A stretch of DNA of 64,000 bases from Verrucomicrobiaceae bacterium (lineage in GTDB: Bacteria > Verrucomicrobiota > Verrucomicrobiia > Chthoniobacterales > Chthoniobacteraceae): assembly GCA_005791535.1 (NCBI GenBank), contig SXWH01000157.1:1-64000 (forward strand), written 5' to 3'. The translations under genes were made by a program, and so were the position numbers. Every line of letters begins with the position of its first letter. The stretch's first letter is position 1. The notes under the pieces were generated by a model that worked only from the letters and a program-made list of their open reading frames with translations, was not told the DNA's origin and made no database searches. Below, piece by piece: positions 1,290-4,961 of this stretch.

Positions 1290-1680
1290 GCGCGCGAAAT
1301 GCCGGATTGCAGGTCACCTTCCCAGTAAAAGCCGGGGCGCCTTCACGCGCAATCGTGCCGGAGAGCTGGGTGCATCCGGCCAATTGCTTTCGAAATACCC
1401 TGTGCGGTTCTCCTGTTTCCCCCGAGATGGCTCATGACACCAGACCGGCCGCACATGTTTTCACAACGGACCGGATGCCCCGAATCGCCCGCCAGCAGCA
1501 TCTGAACGCCGGACCTGGAGTGCCCGTCTTGTCCATTGCGGCTGGCTGTTTTGAAACGCATGACGCCGGGGATTACTGCTTGCGGCGGAAATTGTGACAC
1601 AGGTCCGCAAAAAAATTTTCCACACCTCCCGATTCCCGGGTTCCATCGCTCGCTCTGGAGCACCCCGCTCACTTGCGCGG
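1290..1680. other. intergenic region between convergent genes
   Basis: About 390 bases between the helicase stop and the kinase stop. No convincing gene was found: the open frames on both strands have no recognisable protein character. It contains the first copy of a spaced direct repeat (1570-1600) also found just upstream of the kinase ATG. Read on the minus strand, that copy is also followed by an ATG, at 1561, after about 8 bases. The frame from this ATG encodes about 72 unrecognised residues. No clear hairpin-plus-T-run terminator was seen. Confidence 0.5.
1570..1600 (-). repeat. spaced direct repeat, copy 1 (promoter-like)
   Basis: The plus strand reads GGATTACTGC, then 10 variable bases, then AATTGTGACAC. 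Copy 2 at 4166-4196 has the same two blocks with identical spacing. On the minus strand the order is GTGTCACAATT, 10 bases, GCAGTAATCC. That has the layout of an extracytoplasmic-function sigma promoter and is followed closely by an ATG in both copies. The promoter reading is inference; the repeat is seen directly. Confidence 0.55.
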
Positions 1681-4158
1681 CTAGAAAATAATGCGAACGG
1701 CGAGCCAGCGGCTTTCACTGAAAATAAGATCCACCGTCCACTCGAAAGTCGTGTTCTCATCGCGGAGGGAAACGACGATGCGCTGGAGCGCTCCGGGCCT
1801 GCCGCCGATGATTTCGGGCGGTGCGGAGAGCACGGGCGGCATTCCGCGCGAAGCCTCCGCGCGGATGGCGGTGGCAAAGGCGGCACGGTCGTGCAGGCGT
1901 TGCTCGGTGAGGTCGGAACGCCAGCCGTTGTTAGTCTGCACCACGCGTGTATTGAGCAGCTCCGGAAGGGCCGCAGGGTCGGCATCGCGGGCGAGGGCGC
2001 CAACGAGCGCGCGCGCCCATTCCGTAGCCTCGTCACGGGTGAGCGTCCGCGGGGTGACGCTGTAAAGAGCCTCGCGGGTGATGCGTTCGGCGGTGATGGT
2101 GATGCCGCTGCCCGGATTCACGGTGCCGATGTGCGTGCGGTGAATCCATGTACCGGTCGCGGGACCGTCGGGAGGGTCGGTGAAACGCAATACGGTGGCT
2201 ACGTTCTCAAAGCGTGGGTCCGCCGGATTGCGCACGGGCCGGTTGTCGATACCCAGCAGTTCGGTCGTCTGCCGCGCTGCGCGGGCGGTGATACCCTCGG
2301 CGCGAAGCTCGGCCGCGACTTCGGAAAGGAGCGAGCGTCCGCGCGACAGGAAATCCACCTCGGGACCGTAGTGCGCGAGCAGGCGGGCGGGAAACTCCTC
2401 CCAGTCCGGTGCGGGTCCGGGGTAAAGCGTGCGGAAGATTTCGTCGGACGATGCAGTGTAGTGCAGGCGTTCATCGCGCCAGCGTTCGTGGGCGCGGAGG
2501 TGCTGTTGCTGCGGAGTCGGCGGCGGTTCGGGTGGTGAGGGCCAAAGCGCCCATGCGCCAAGCACGGAGACGCCGGAGAGAAAGCCGACGGCCCGCGCGC
2601 GCCGGTGCGGCCACCAGCGGATGGCGGCAGTCGCGCCTGTGCAGAACAGCGTGGCGCCGAGGATGGCGGCGCTGATCGCCATGACCCAGGGCGTGTATCC
2701 GGGAATGAAGGTGATGCGATCGATCTGCCGACCCAGCGCGTCCGAAGGGATGCCGGTGCGCTCGACGAGGCGGTAGTCTTTACCTCGAACGGGGGCGGAC
2801 CAGGGCGAAAGAATCTCGGTGCGTTCAAGCTCGGTGACGGCGAGTCCGTGACGCCATGGCGGGTCGCCGGGTTTGAGCCAGTCGTTGCAGACATTGAACC
2901 AGACATCGATGAGGCACAGGATGGGAATGAGGACGCAGACTATCTGTGTGACGAAGATGAGGCCGGCCGTCGTCCTAGTTGGAGGCAGCCGTATACCGAA
3001 GGGGGAAGGCAGCGATTCACGCAGCGGCACGGCGCGAAAGCGGATGAGGCGCGCTATTTGCCAGACCGCGGGCACAGCCATCAGGATGAGCAGCACCGCG
3101 AGGGCCTGGAAGCCACCCGCCCGCAAGCCGTGCGGCCCGACAAGATCGACCGGCCACGCCACGCGCGCGTGGCTGGTTTTCAGCATCACACCGAGCGCCG
3201 CGATGCAGATGAAGAGGCTCAACACAGTCCACACCGCATCGGCAACCCGAATCGGGAAAGTGAGCCGCGGTGCGCCGGCGTAGCGGGGCGGCGAGGCTTC
3301 GATTTCCCGAAGTGCGGAAACCATGGAGCCAACGGTGGGCCAGCGGTCGCATAGATCCGGCGCAAGGGCGCGGCGGATGACGTCGTCGATGCGGATATCC
3401 ACCCGCTTGCGCTCGGAGATGGAGCCCCACGCTCCCCGCGGCGGAGCGCCGGTAAGCAGGTCGTGGAGGACGACGCCGAGCGCGTAAATATCGGTGCCCG
3501 TGCCGGGGCGGTATCCCGCGTAGTAGGCCTCCGGCGGGAGATATTCGGCGGTGCCCGCAACGACGCCGGTGACAGTTACGGAGAGGCGGTGGGTGCGTTC
3601 ATGCGTGGGCCGGGCAAGGCCGAAGTCTGCAACTTTGGCGATTCCATCCTCGGAGATGAGGATATTCTGCGGCTTGAGATCGCGGTGAAGAATCCCCCGC
3701 GCGTGGGCGTGGTCCACGGCGGCGGCGATTTGATGGAAGATCGCGAGGGCGCGGTCGGCGTCCATACCCCGCGGAGGGATGCGGTGCGCGAGCGAGGAGC
3801 CGTTGACAAATTCCATCGCGAGAAAGAGGCCGCCATCCGGCAAGGCACCCGTTTCGAGAAGGCGGACGATGTTGGGGTGGTCGAGGGCGCGAAGCGCGGC
3901 GGCCTCCTCCTCGATGCGTTCGATGGTTTCGAGGTCCGACACGCCGGCAATCTTGATGGCTCCGGCGATGCCGTCCGTTTCCCTCACCGCCCGCCACACG
4001 ATCCCAAAGCCGCCCTGCCCAGCGATGCCCTCAATCGCCCAACCCGGGACCGTGGGGCGCTCGGGTGCATTGCCACCGCCGAGCACGCCGGCGAGGGAGG
4101 CCGGCTGAAGGCCCCGAAGGCTCGGAGGGACCGGTGTTGGGTTATGCTGGGACGGCAT
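1681..4158 (-). CDS. membrane-anchored serine/threonine protein kinase
   Basis: Eukaryotic-type (Hanks) kinase expected to phosphorylate Ser/Thr at the inner membrane. The kinase domain fills the first ~300 residues, with the glycine loop GQGGFG, the AIKI lysine, HRDLKPQN, DFG (VADFGLAR) and a PPEA substrate-recognition motif, so it looks catalytically complete. About five hydrophobic segments follow (roughly residues 310-550), then a ~270-residue soluble tail of unknown function. I chose the ATG at 4158 (825 aa). A TTG at 4200 would overlap the upstream sigma-factor stop as TTGA and add 14 residues. The gene sits directly downstream of an ECF sigma factor, a pairing known in PVC bacteria, which suggests sigma-kinase signalling. 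A promoter-like repeat ends 8 bases before the ATG. Confidence 0.9.
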   Translation of the reverse strand: MPSQHNPTPVPPSLRGLQPASLAGVLGGGNAPERPTVPGWAIEGIAGQGGFGIVWRAVRETDGIAGAIKIAGVSDLETIERIEEEAAALRALDHPNIVRLLETGALPDGGLFLAMEFVNGSSLAHRIPPRGMDADRALAIFHQIAAAVDHAHARGILHRDLKPQNILISEDGIAKVADFGLARPTHERTHRLSVTVTGVVAGTAEYLPPEAYYAGYRPGTGTDIYALGVVLHDLLTGAPPRGAWGSISERKRVDIRIDDVIRRALAPDLCDRWPTVGSMVSALREIEASPPRYAGAPRLTFPIRVADAVWTVLSLFICIAALGVMLKTSHARVAWPVDLVGPHGLRAGGFQALAVLLILMAVPAVWQIARLIRFRAVPLRESLPSPFGIRLPPTRTTAGLIFVTQIVCVLIPILCLIDVWFNVCNDWLKPGDPPWRHGLAVTELERTEILSPWSAPVRGKDYRLVERTGIPSDALGRQIDRITFIPGYTPWVMAISAAILGATLFCTGATAAIRWWPHRRARAVGFLSGVSVLGAWALWPSPPEPPPTPQQQHLRAHERWRDERLHYTASSDEIFRTLYPGPAPDWEEFPARLLAHYGPEVDFLSRGRSLLSEVAAELRAEGITARAARQTTELLGIDNRPVRNPADPRFENVATVLRFTDPPDGPATGTWIHRTHIGTVNPGSGITITAERITREALYSVTPRTLTRDEATEWARALVGALARDADPAALPELLNTRVVQTNNGWRSDLTEQRLHDRAAFATAIRAEASRGMPPVLSAPPEIIGGRPGALQRIVVSLRDENTTFEWTVDLIFSESRWLAVRIIF

Positions 4159-4165
4159 TGCGCTA

Positions 4166-4196
4166 GGATTACTGCGGGGACCGCAAATTGTGACAC
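4166..4196 (-). promoter_or_regulatory. spaced direct repeat, copy 2; candidate ECF promoter of the kinase
   Basis: Same two blocks as at 1570-1600, with the same 10-base variable spacer. On the minus strand it reads GTGTCACAATT-N10-GCAGTAATCC and ends about 8 bases before the kinase ATG. It begins immediately after the sigma-factor stop codon. A transcript starting just past the second block would be nearly leaderless. The promoter function, and its recognition by the neighbouring sigma factor, are inferred. Confidence 0.5.
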
Positions 4197-4961
4197 TCAA
4201 CGGCCCAGCATTGCACGGATTTCCTCAAAAAGCTGCGCCTCGCAAGTAATCCCGAGCCGCAATGCTGCGAGTTCCAACAGCGCGCGTCGGTAGCGCTCGC
4301 GAAGCCGCACAGATGCCTGCCTGACGGCGGCTCCCGTCATCCCCAGTCGCGTGGCGACGTCCTCTTACGTGTCCTCCGCCAGCGGCGATTCGAGCGCTGG
4401 GAGCAGCGCGGCGAAAAGATCCTGACGCGCCGTCTTTTCGTAATGCTTCCCGACGCGCTCCAAGGCCTCGTCGAGCAGGGTTATCGCCCAAGCGCGGGCA
4501 TAAACCCGGTCGGGTTGCGTGTCTGCAGCAAGGTCAGTGGCAAAGGCAGATTCGACATTGCCCCAGTCGATGCGCACACGCTCGGCAATGCCGCCGCGTT
4601 TCAGCCGCGTGGATTTCGTATGCTCGGTGGCGAGGTAGTTGGAGAACGAGGCGAGAAGCCAGGAACGGAGTTTGCCGCGGGTTTCATCGGCCTGCGCGAG
4701 GAGATTGCGCGCGCAGAGCTTTTCGAGGAAGCCTTGGACGCCGTCCGCCGCATCCTCCGGGGAGGCTCCACGTCCTCGCGACCACGCGTAGAGAGGATAC
4801 CAGTAAAAGCCAATCCAGTCGCCAAGCGGCCCCGCTCCGCCCGAGGCCCTGCGCACCAGCGACCAGCGCGTGCGCGGGAAAAGCGCTGCACCGGCGTGAA
4901 GTCCGGCGTCCGCATCCGCTCCGCCGAGGCTGGAGTTTGGGGAATGTTTATCGTCTGGCAT
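4197..4961 (-). pseudogene. ECF-type RNA polymerase sigma factor interrupted by an in-frame stop
   Basis: The first 198 codons (ATG at 4961) encode the region-2 part of a PVC-type ECF sigma factor, with TRWSLV near residue 31 and the SPEDAADGVQGFLEKL-like segment. Translation meets a TAA at 4365-4367, but the same frame continues with 55 codons of good region-4 helix-turn-helix sequence (EDVATRLGMTGAAVRQA, then VRLRERYRRALLELA) to a TGA at 4197-4199. The stop falls where a tyrosine would fit (EDT-Y-EDVA), so one TAC/TAT-to-TAA change explains it. As written, the protein lacks its -35-binding domain and should not work as a sigma factor. A sequencing error is the main alternative. The kinase follows directly. 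Confidence 0.85.

Follow-up and report, generated by a model that had tools for sequence, protein, structure and literature searches.

A bipartite repeat on both sides of a Ser/Thr kinase gene in a Verrucomicrobiaceae bacterium: likely promoters of the adjacent ECF sigma factor

A Ser/Thr kinase gene in the genome of a Verrucomicrobiaceae bacterium is bracketed by two copies of the same gapped sequence, which raises the question of what reads them. We examined this in a 64,000-nucleotide stretch of the genome (the window). The gene order on its minus strand is S41 peptidase (7238-5085), ECF sigma factor (4961-4197), copy A of the repeat, kinase (4158-1681), and copy B. About 280 bp with no gene separate copy B from a convergent DEAD-box helicase gene on the plus strand, whose 3' end is at 1289. 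The gap between the sigma and kinase genes is 38 bp. The kinase is of the Hanks type and has 825 amino acids (ATG at 4158), with an N-terminal kinase domain (PF00069, E 3e-41) followed by segments that appear hydrophobic by eye.

Read on the minus strand, copy A (4196-4166) and copy B (1600-1570) both have the form GTGTCACAATT-N10-GCAGTAATCC. An initial annotation of this DNA had reported these positions, 21 identical fixed positions, an unrelated 10-base spacer, and an ATG about 8 bases after each copy. It had concluded that a protein recognizes the repeat, for example as a promoter of the ECF type that the neighboring sigma factor reads. The descriptive part of this was borne out. The copies agree at 21/21 fixed positions, and 100 dinucleotide shuffles of the window produced no match with three or fewer mismatches. 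Block 1 is the same over 11 nt (12 if the first spacer base is counted) and block 2 over 10 nt, whereas the spacers agree at 4/10 bases. Parsed in the style of a promoter, each copy is TGTCACA-N16-GTAATCC. The -35-like TGTCACA is at 4195-4189 in copy A and 1599-1593 in copy B, and the -10-like GTAATCC is at 4172-4166 and 1576-1570, respectively. Copy A follows the stop codon of the sigma gene with no base in between, and 7 nt separate its other end from the kinase ATG. Copy B comes about 80 nt after the stop codon of the kinase gene, and an ATG follows it after 8 nt (1561). Counted from the -35 core, the A of the ATG is at a distance of 37-38 nt in both cases.

Two direct repeats around a single gene are also what target-site or site-specific repeats would look like, so they might be the footprint of a mobile element or of a simple duplication. 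We regard this as highly improbable, and the initial annotation had also rejected duplication. A duplication would have carried the spacer and flanks along, but outside the blocks the copies agree only at the background level (12/40 positions in the upstream flanks and 13/40 in the downstream flanks). Furthermore, no transposase or recombinase was recognized between the copies, and relatives have different sequences at the equivalent positions.

We scanned the draft genome by patterns (5.16 Mb in 294 contigs, 87% complete). With a relaxed gapped pattern, copies A and B were the sole two sites. The single match elsewhere in the genome with three mismatches (C85) was rejected as a third site, being within a long autotransporter-like ORF. 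Another genome (G028, locus L004) also has a three-mismatch match, and neither a sigma nor a kinase gene was seen beside it. The initial annotation had suggested such a scan and had named a lack of further copies as evidence against its proposal. Formally, that is the outcome, although both known copies are at the sigma-kinase cassette. The family comparison below gives the reason, namely that a cassette can use a motif of its own, present at very few sites.

If the copies are promoters, then the obvious candidate to read them is the sigma factor encoded immediately upstream of copy A. Its reading frame (4197-4961, minus strand, 254 codons) has 198 codons, an in-frame TAA (4367-4365), and then 55 in-frame codons that complete region 4. 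The stop is just before the region 4.2 helices and aligns with a Tyr of most relatives, so the ORF is not intact through region 4 in this assembly. A pseudogene and a one-base assembly error are equally plausible explanations. If the TAA is real, it would abolish -35 recognition. Many ECF sigma proteins that adjoin kinases share 35-39% identity with the read-through protein, which also aligns along its length with relatives that match TIGR02937, as expected of a group 4 (ECF) factor, a class with sigma2 and sigma4 domains only. The match of the window protein itself to TIGR02937 (sigma70-ECF) is weak and below the cut-off (E 0.014), compared with E 1e-12, above the cut-off, for the sigma factor of locus L060. 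The profile of the window protein matched solved structures of ECF SigE at no better than E about 7e-4. No close orthologues were found among the genome contigs searched, and the best relative in the order is 39% identical. Therefore, no relative is close enough to give a footprint of the exact window motif, and the comparison is with equivalent positions in more distant relatives.

Pairs of such sigma and kinase genes are a large family in the Chthoniobacterales; this genome alone has at least 11 sigma and 17 kinase matches of this kind. The best relatives of the helicase are from Chthoniobacteraceae and Spartobacteria, and the family sizes likewise point to this order. We retrieved sixty loci around sigma genes of the family. 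Of 32 sigma-kinase gaps, 18 contain the sequence GTAAC. In 300 dinucleotide shuffles, the mean was 1.5 and the maximum was 6, and even when any 5-mer could score, the shuffled gaps reached no more than 14. GTAAC either coincides with the sigma stop codon or follows it by tens of bases at most, which is the place of copy A. In locus L060 the motif is GTAACAATT-N10-GCTTCTG, with block length and spacer equal to GTCACAATT-N10-GCAGTAA of the window. A conserved bipartite motif precedes sigma-linked genes in relatives, as expected of an ECF promoter. The sigma-kinase pairs of the window's own genome that were scored have no GTAAC in their gaps.

The window motif departs from the family consensus in its -10 block and in the third base of its -35 element, which is GTCAC in both copies compared with GTAAC in most of the family. 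The recognition helix of the sigma factor differs as well (TGAAVRQASVRLRERY in the window and SEGAVRVAVHRLRLRY in L060). In a phylogenetic tree, the window sigma factor is on a long branch beside those of L047 and L051 (support 92/84, not starred), in which no matching motif was evident by eye, and it does not form a well-supported clade with any sigma factor that has GTAAC. A reasonable reading, drawn from a single lineage with a long branch, is that the recognition helix and its site changed jointly.

Three other features of the gaps and their surroundings were apparent. L063 has two copies of the motif (1054 and 2210), one before a unit of an FHA-domain-like gene and a sigma gene and one before a kinase gene. 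In L082 and L092, GTAAC-N-GGTAAGAAAG is upstream of the sigma gene, about 750-780 nt before its stop codon, which suggests sigma autoregulation in that clade. Finally, several loci of both this family and a sister family of the order (L053 and L285 among them) have GTGAAC around the expected transcript start, at a distance of about 32-33 nt from the G of GTAAC; it does not occur in the window.

Copy B also has counterparts, found past the kinase genes of relatives. In L081, from the same genus, GCTAACCTTT...CCCCAACT is in the sigma-kinase gap, and GCTCACCTTT...CCCCAACT is 800 bp past the kinase gene, where it precedes a gene for a large exported repeat protein. L145, an 87% homologue of L081 in that genus, has GCTGACCTTTT at both places with unrelated spacers. 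In the related cassette of L070, again from that genus, GTAACCTT...AATCC...TATCC is repeated before another exported repeat protein. When second copies were scored within loci, 6/45 loci reached the score, compared with about 1 expected from a cross-locus comparison, a background that itself includes real shared promoters. The window was outside these 45 scored pairs because no ORF follows copy B.

The sister family has a longer motif, CGTAAC-N9-AAT-N7-AGTAC. It gave 68 matches in 29 of 210 genomes, compared with 2 for the reversed pattern. We looked at what follows 30 of these sites. For 18 of them, a kinase ORF comes next, at a distance of about 60 nt; 2 precede a broken ORF with a zinc-ribbon start like those of the kinases, and 10 precede a protein with an N-terminal segment that resembles a signal by eye, often at about 106 nt. 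Therefore, 30/30 are upstream of a kinase or an exported protein. The order sigma-site-kinase-site-exported protein, all on one strand, was found in L275, L276, L277, L278, L280, L282, L158, L150, L148, and L156. This is the arrangement of the window, except that these loci have a gene where the window has none. In all, the layout of copy B matches second copies in L081, L145, L070, L156, L150, L148, and others.

Targets for exported proteins in the sister family (L285 at 2123-2200, L280, L278, L150, L148, and others) also have a structured 5' leader after the motif, of the form GTGAACGGCCAGAAATGA, a variable hairpin, and then AAAGAAGGCC. A consensus fold of 23 such leaders has 11 pairs, 6 of them with compensatory changes, and three sources gave no Rfam match. 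The leader is possibly an undescribed RNA element.

The initial proposal, that a protein recognizes the repeat and that the repeat is an ECF promoter for the neighboring sigma factor, is supported by this comparison of relatives: by GTAAC in the gaps, by second copies with unrelated spacers, and by the consistent targets of the sister-family sites. It is also supported by the occurrence of TGTCACA-n16 in promoters of ECF41 factors (PMC3426412). Even so, a bipartite motif with a free spacer also suits a dimeric or two-domain regulator, and the last block is just 7-8 nt before an ATG. The repeat might then be the operator of a conventional DNA-binding repressor or activator. We consider this improbable. 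Neither block repeats the other, in direct or in inverted orientation, and the cassette has no regulator gene besides that of the sigma factor. Furthermore, the equivalent motif of relatives goes together with sigma genes and is spaced like -35 and -10 elements, and TGTCACA-n16 is an arrangement proven for ECF promoters.

A different sigma factor of the same genome might instead read both copies, for example one of the ECF41 type. ECF41 promoters share the -35 heptamer (PMC3426412), at least 10 other sigma relatives of the family are encoded in the genome, and a factor could be missing from an assembly that is 87% complete. However, no ECF41 factor scored above the TIGR02957 cut-off in this genome (the best match, 60.8 versus 323 bits, covers the sigma core only). 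ECF41 promoters have CGTC/TGTT at -10 rather than GTAA, and both genomic copies of the motif are at one sigma gene. This explanation is about as doubtful as an operator. We think it very likely that copies A and B are promoters of one dedicated ECF sigma factor, the one encoded immediately upstream of copy A.

We then asked what copy B might transcribe. The initial annotation had noted the ATG that follows it, but as a gene start this ATG fails. It opens an ORF of 72 amino acids with a codon score of -0.14, compared with a mean of 0.34 in real gene segments of that length, and the score is about equal in all three frames, so copy B as the start of a small-protein gene was rejected. The whole stretch downstream (1290-1569, minus strand) has no recognizable gene and no coding signal in any frame. 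A strongly structured or known RNA found no support either: the structure z score of -0.86 is not unusual, and there was no credible Rfam match. In 40 genomes, the stretch had no homologue beyond short matches of 26-27 nt. The helicase is conserved in the genus and its downstream neighborhood is not; in an empty-site test, none of the neighbor genes of the window were found beside the helicase in relatives from the genus.

These observations bear on another explanation, that the cassette has decayed. The copies would be former sigma-dependent promoters, the sigma gene a pseudogene, and copy B the relic of a lost target gene. The in-frame TAA, the missing gene downstream of copy B, and the lack of a homologue of that region in the genus would all fit. 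However, the copies are still perfectly identical, and the kinase ORF is unbroken over 825 codons with normal codon usage. Single internal stops also occur in two other members of the sigma family, both from draft genomes (G027 and G150), and an assembly error is an equally plausible source of the TAA. Therefore, decay is a real possibility but a minority one, and our preferred interpretation is still that copies A and B are promoters of the adjacent sigma factor, at a locus that may be active now or have been so recently, despite the TAA.

On that interpretation, RNA polymerase with the sigma factor would bind each copy, with region 4 reading TGTCACA and region 2 reading GTAATCC. Copy A, at the end of the sigma gene, would drive the kinase gene. 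Because the kinase ATG is only 37-38 nt from the -35 core, the transcript would start at the ATG or within a few nucleotides of it, giving a near-leaderless mRNA. Copy B would be a second target promoter that starts a second transcript past the kinase gene. At the same position in relatives, the motif would drive a gene for an exported protein, and here that gene was presumably lost or never present. By analogy to ECF43 pairs, the kinase might act on the sigma factor in a feedback.

More speculatively, the Chthoniobacterales might have a set of parallel circuits, in each of which a sigma factor activates its own kinase and exported proteins. Some could be insulated from the others by a change of GTAAC to GTCAC along with the recognition helix, and some could be activated by phosphorylation of a region 2.2 Ser that replaces an acidic residue. 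In the window, copy B might make an untranslated or leaderless short RNA that runs toward the 3' end of the helicase gene. We offer this extended picture only tentatively. The main interest of the locus is in the family-wide view, in which one sigma factor would control a kinase and exported proteins. If the promoter is at fixed positions, then the regulon of a Verrucomicrobiota family, a kinase and exported proteins, becomes predictable from sequence. Variants of sigma region 4 that are paired in nature with -35 variants would also be material for studying how promoter specificity changes.

We found no description of these promoters in Verrucomicrobia in the open-access papers that were searched. 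ECF groups that are genetically linked to Ser/Thr kinases include ECF43, ECF59, ECF61, ECF62, ECF217, and ECF283 (PMC8999054). Like them, the window has an ECF sigma gene beside a Hanks-type kinase gene and no anti-sigma gene was seen, and the kinase is the presumed activator. Unlike them, it has one sigma-like promoter in the sigma-kinase gap and another beyond the kinase gene, and the first of these makes the kinase itself a proposed target. Kinase linkage is a prediction for several groups, and in the reviews consulted, mechanisms have been tested only for ECF43 members; kinase feedback on the sigma factor was demonstrated for ECF43 pairs (PMC8999054 and PMC13147305). In ECF43, uncharged residues, including a Thr that can be phosphorylated, take the place of the acidic DAED of region 2.2 (PMC8999054 and PMC13147305). 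The window sigma factor has DAAD rather than the uncharged STTA/QTTA of ECF43. It keeps two acidic residues, so the ECF43 mechanism is not assured for it. The sigma factors of L070, L081, and L147, all with an adjoining kinase gene, have SAAD for the usual DAED, with Ser replacing Asp, which recalls the ECF43 phospho-switch.

Experimentally mapped ECF41 promoters are TGTCACA-n16-CGTC (PMC3426412). Their -35 heptamer and 16-nt spacer are identical to those of the window motif, but the -10 element is CGTC/TGTT in ECF41 and GTAA (GTAATCC) in the window. ECF41 factors have a C-terminal regulatory extension. The read-through window sigma factor appears to lack it, ending shortly after region 4 in the alignment with relatives, and a direct domain search detected no such extension. 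Also, the ECF41 partner is a COE gene rather than a kinase gene. Since no ECF41 factor was found in this genome, the resemblance would be one of DNA readout and not of membership.

Very probably, copies A and B belong to a locus-specific variant of the known ECF/kinase circuit. Compared with the Chthoniobacterales GTAAC cassettes, the window has GTCAC, its -10 block is nearer to that element than in the sister-family type, its kinase does not have the usual N-terminal zinc-ribbon, its sigma gene has a TAA, and an exported-protein gene is absent after copy B. What it shares with them is the architecture: a motif located at the stop codon of the sigma gene or directly downstream of it, the kinase gene next, and an equally spaced copy of the motif past the kinase gene.
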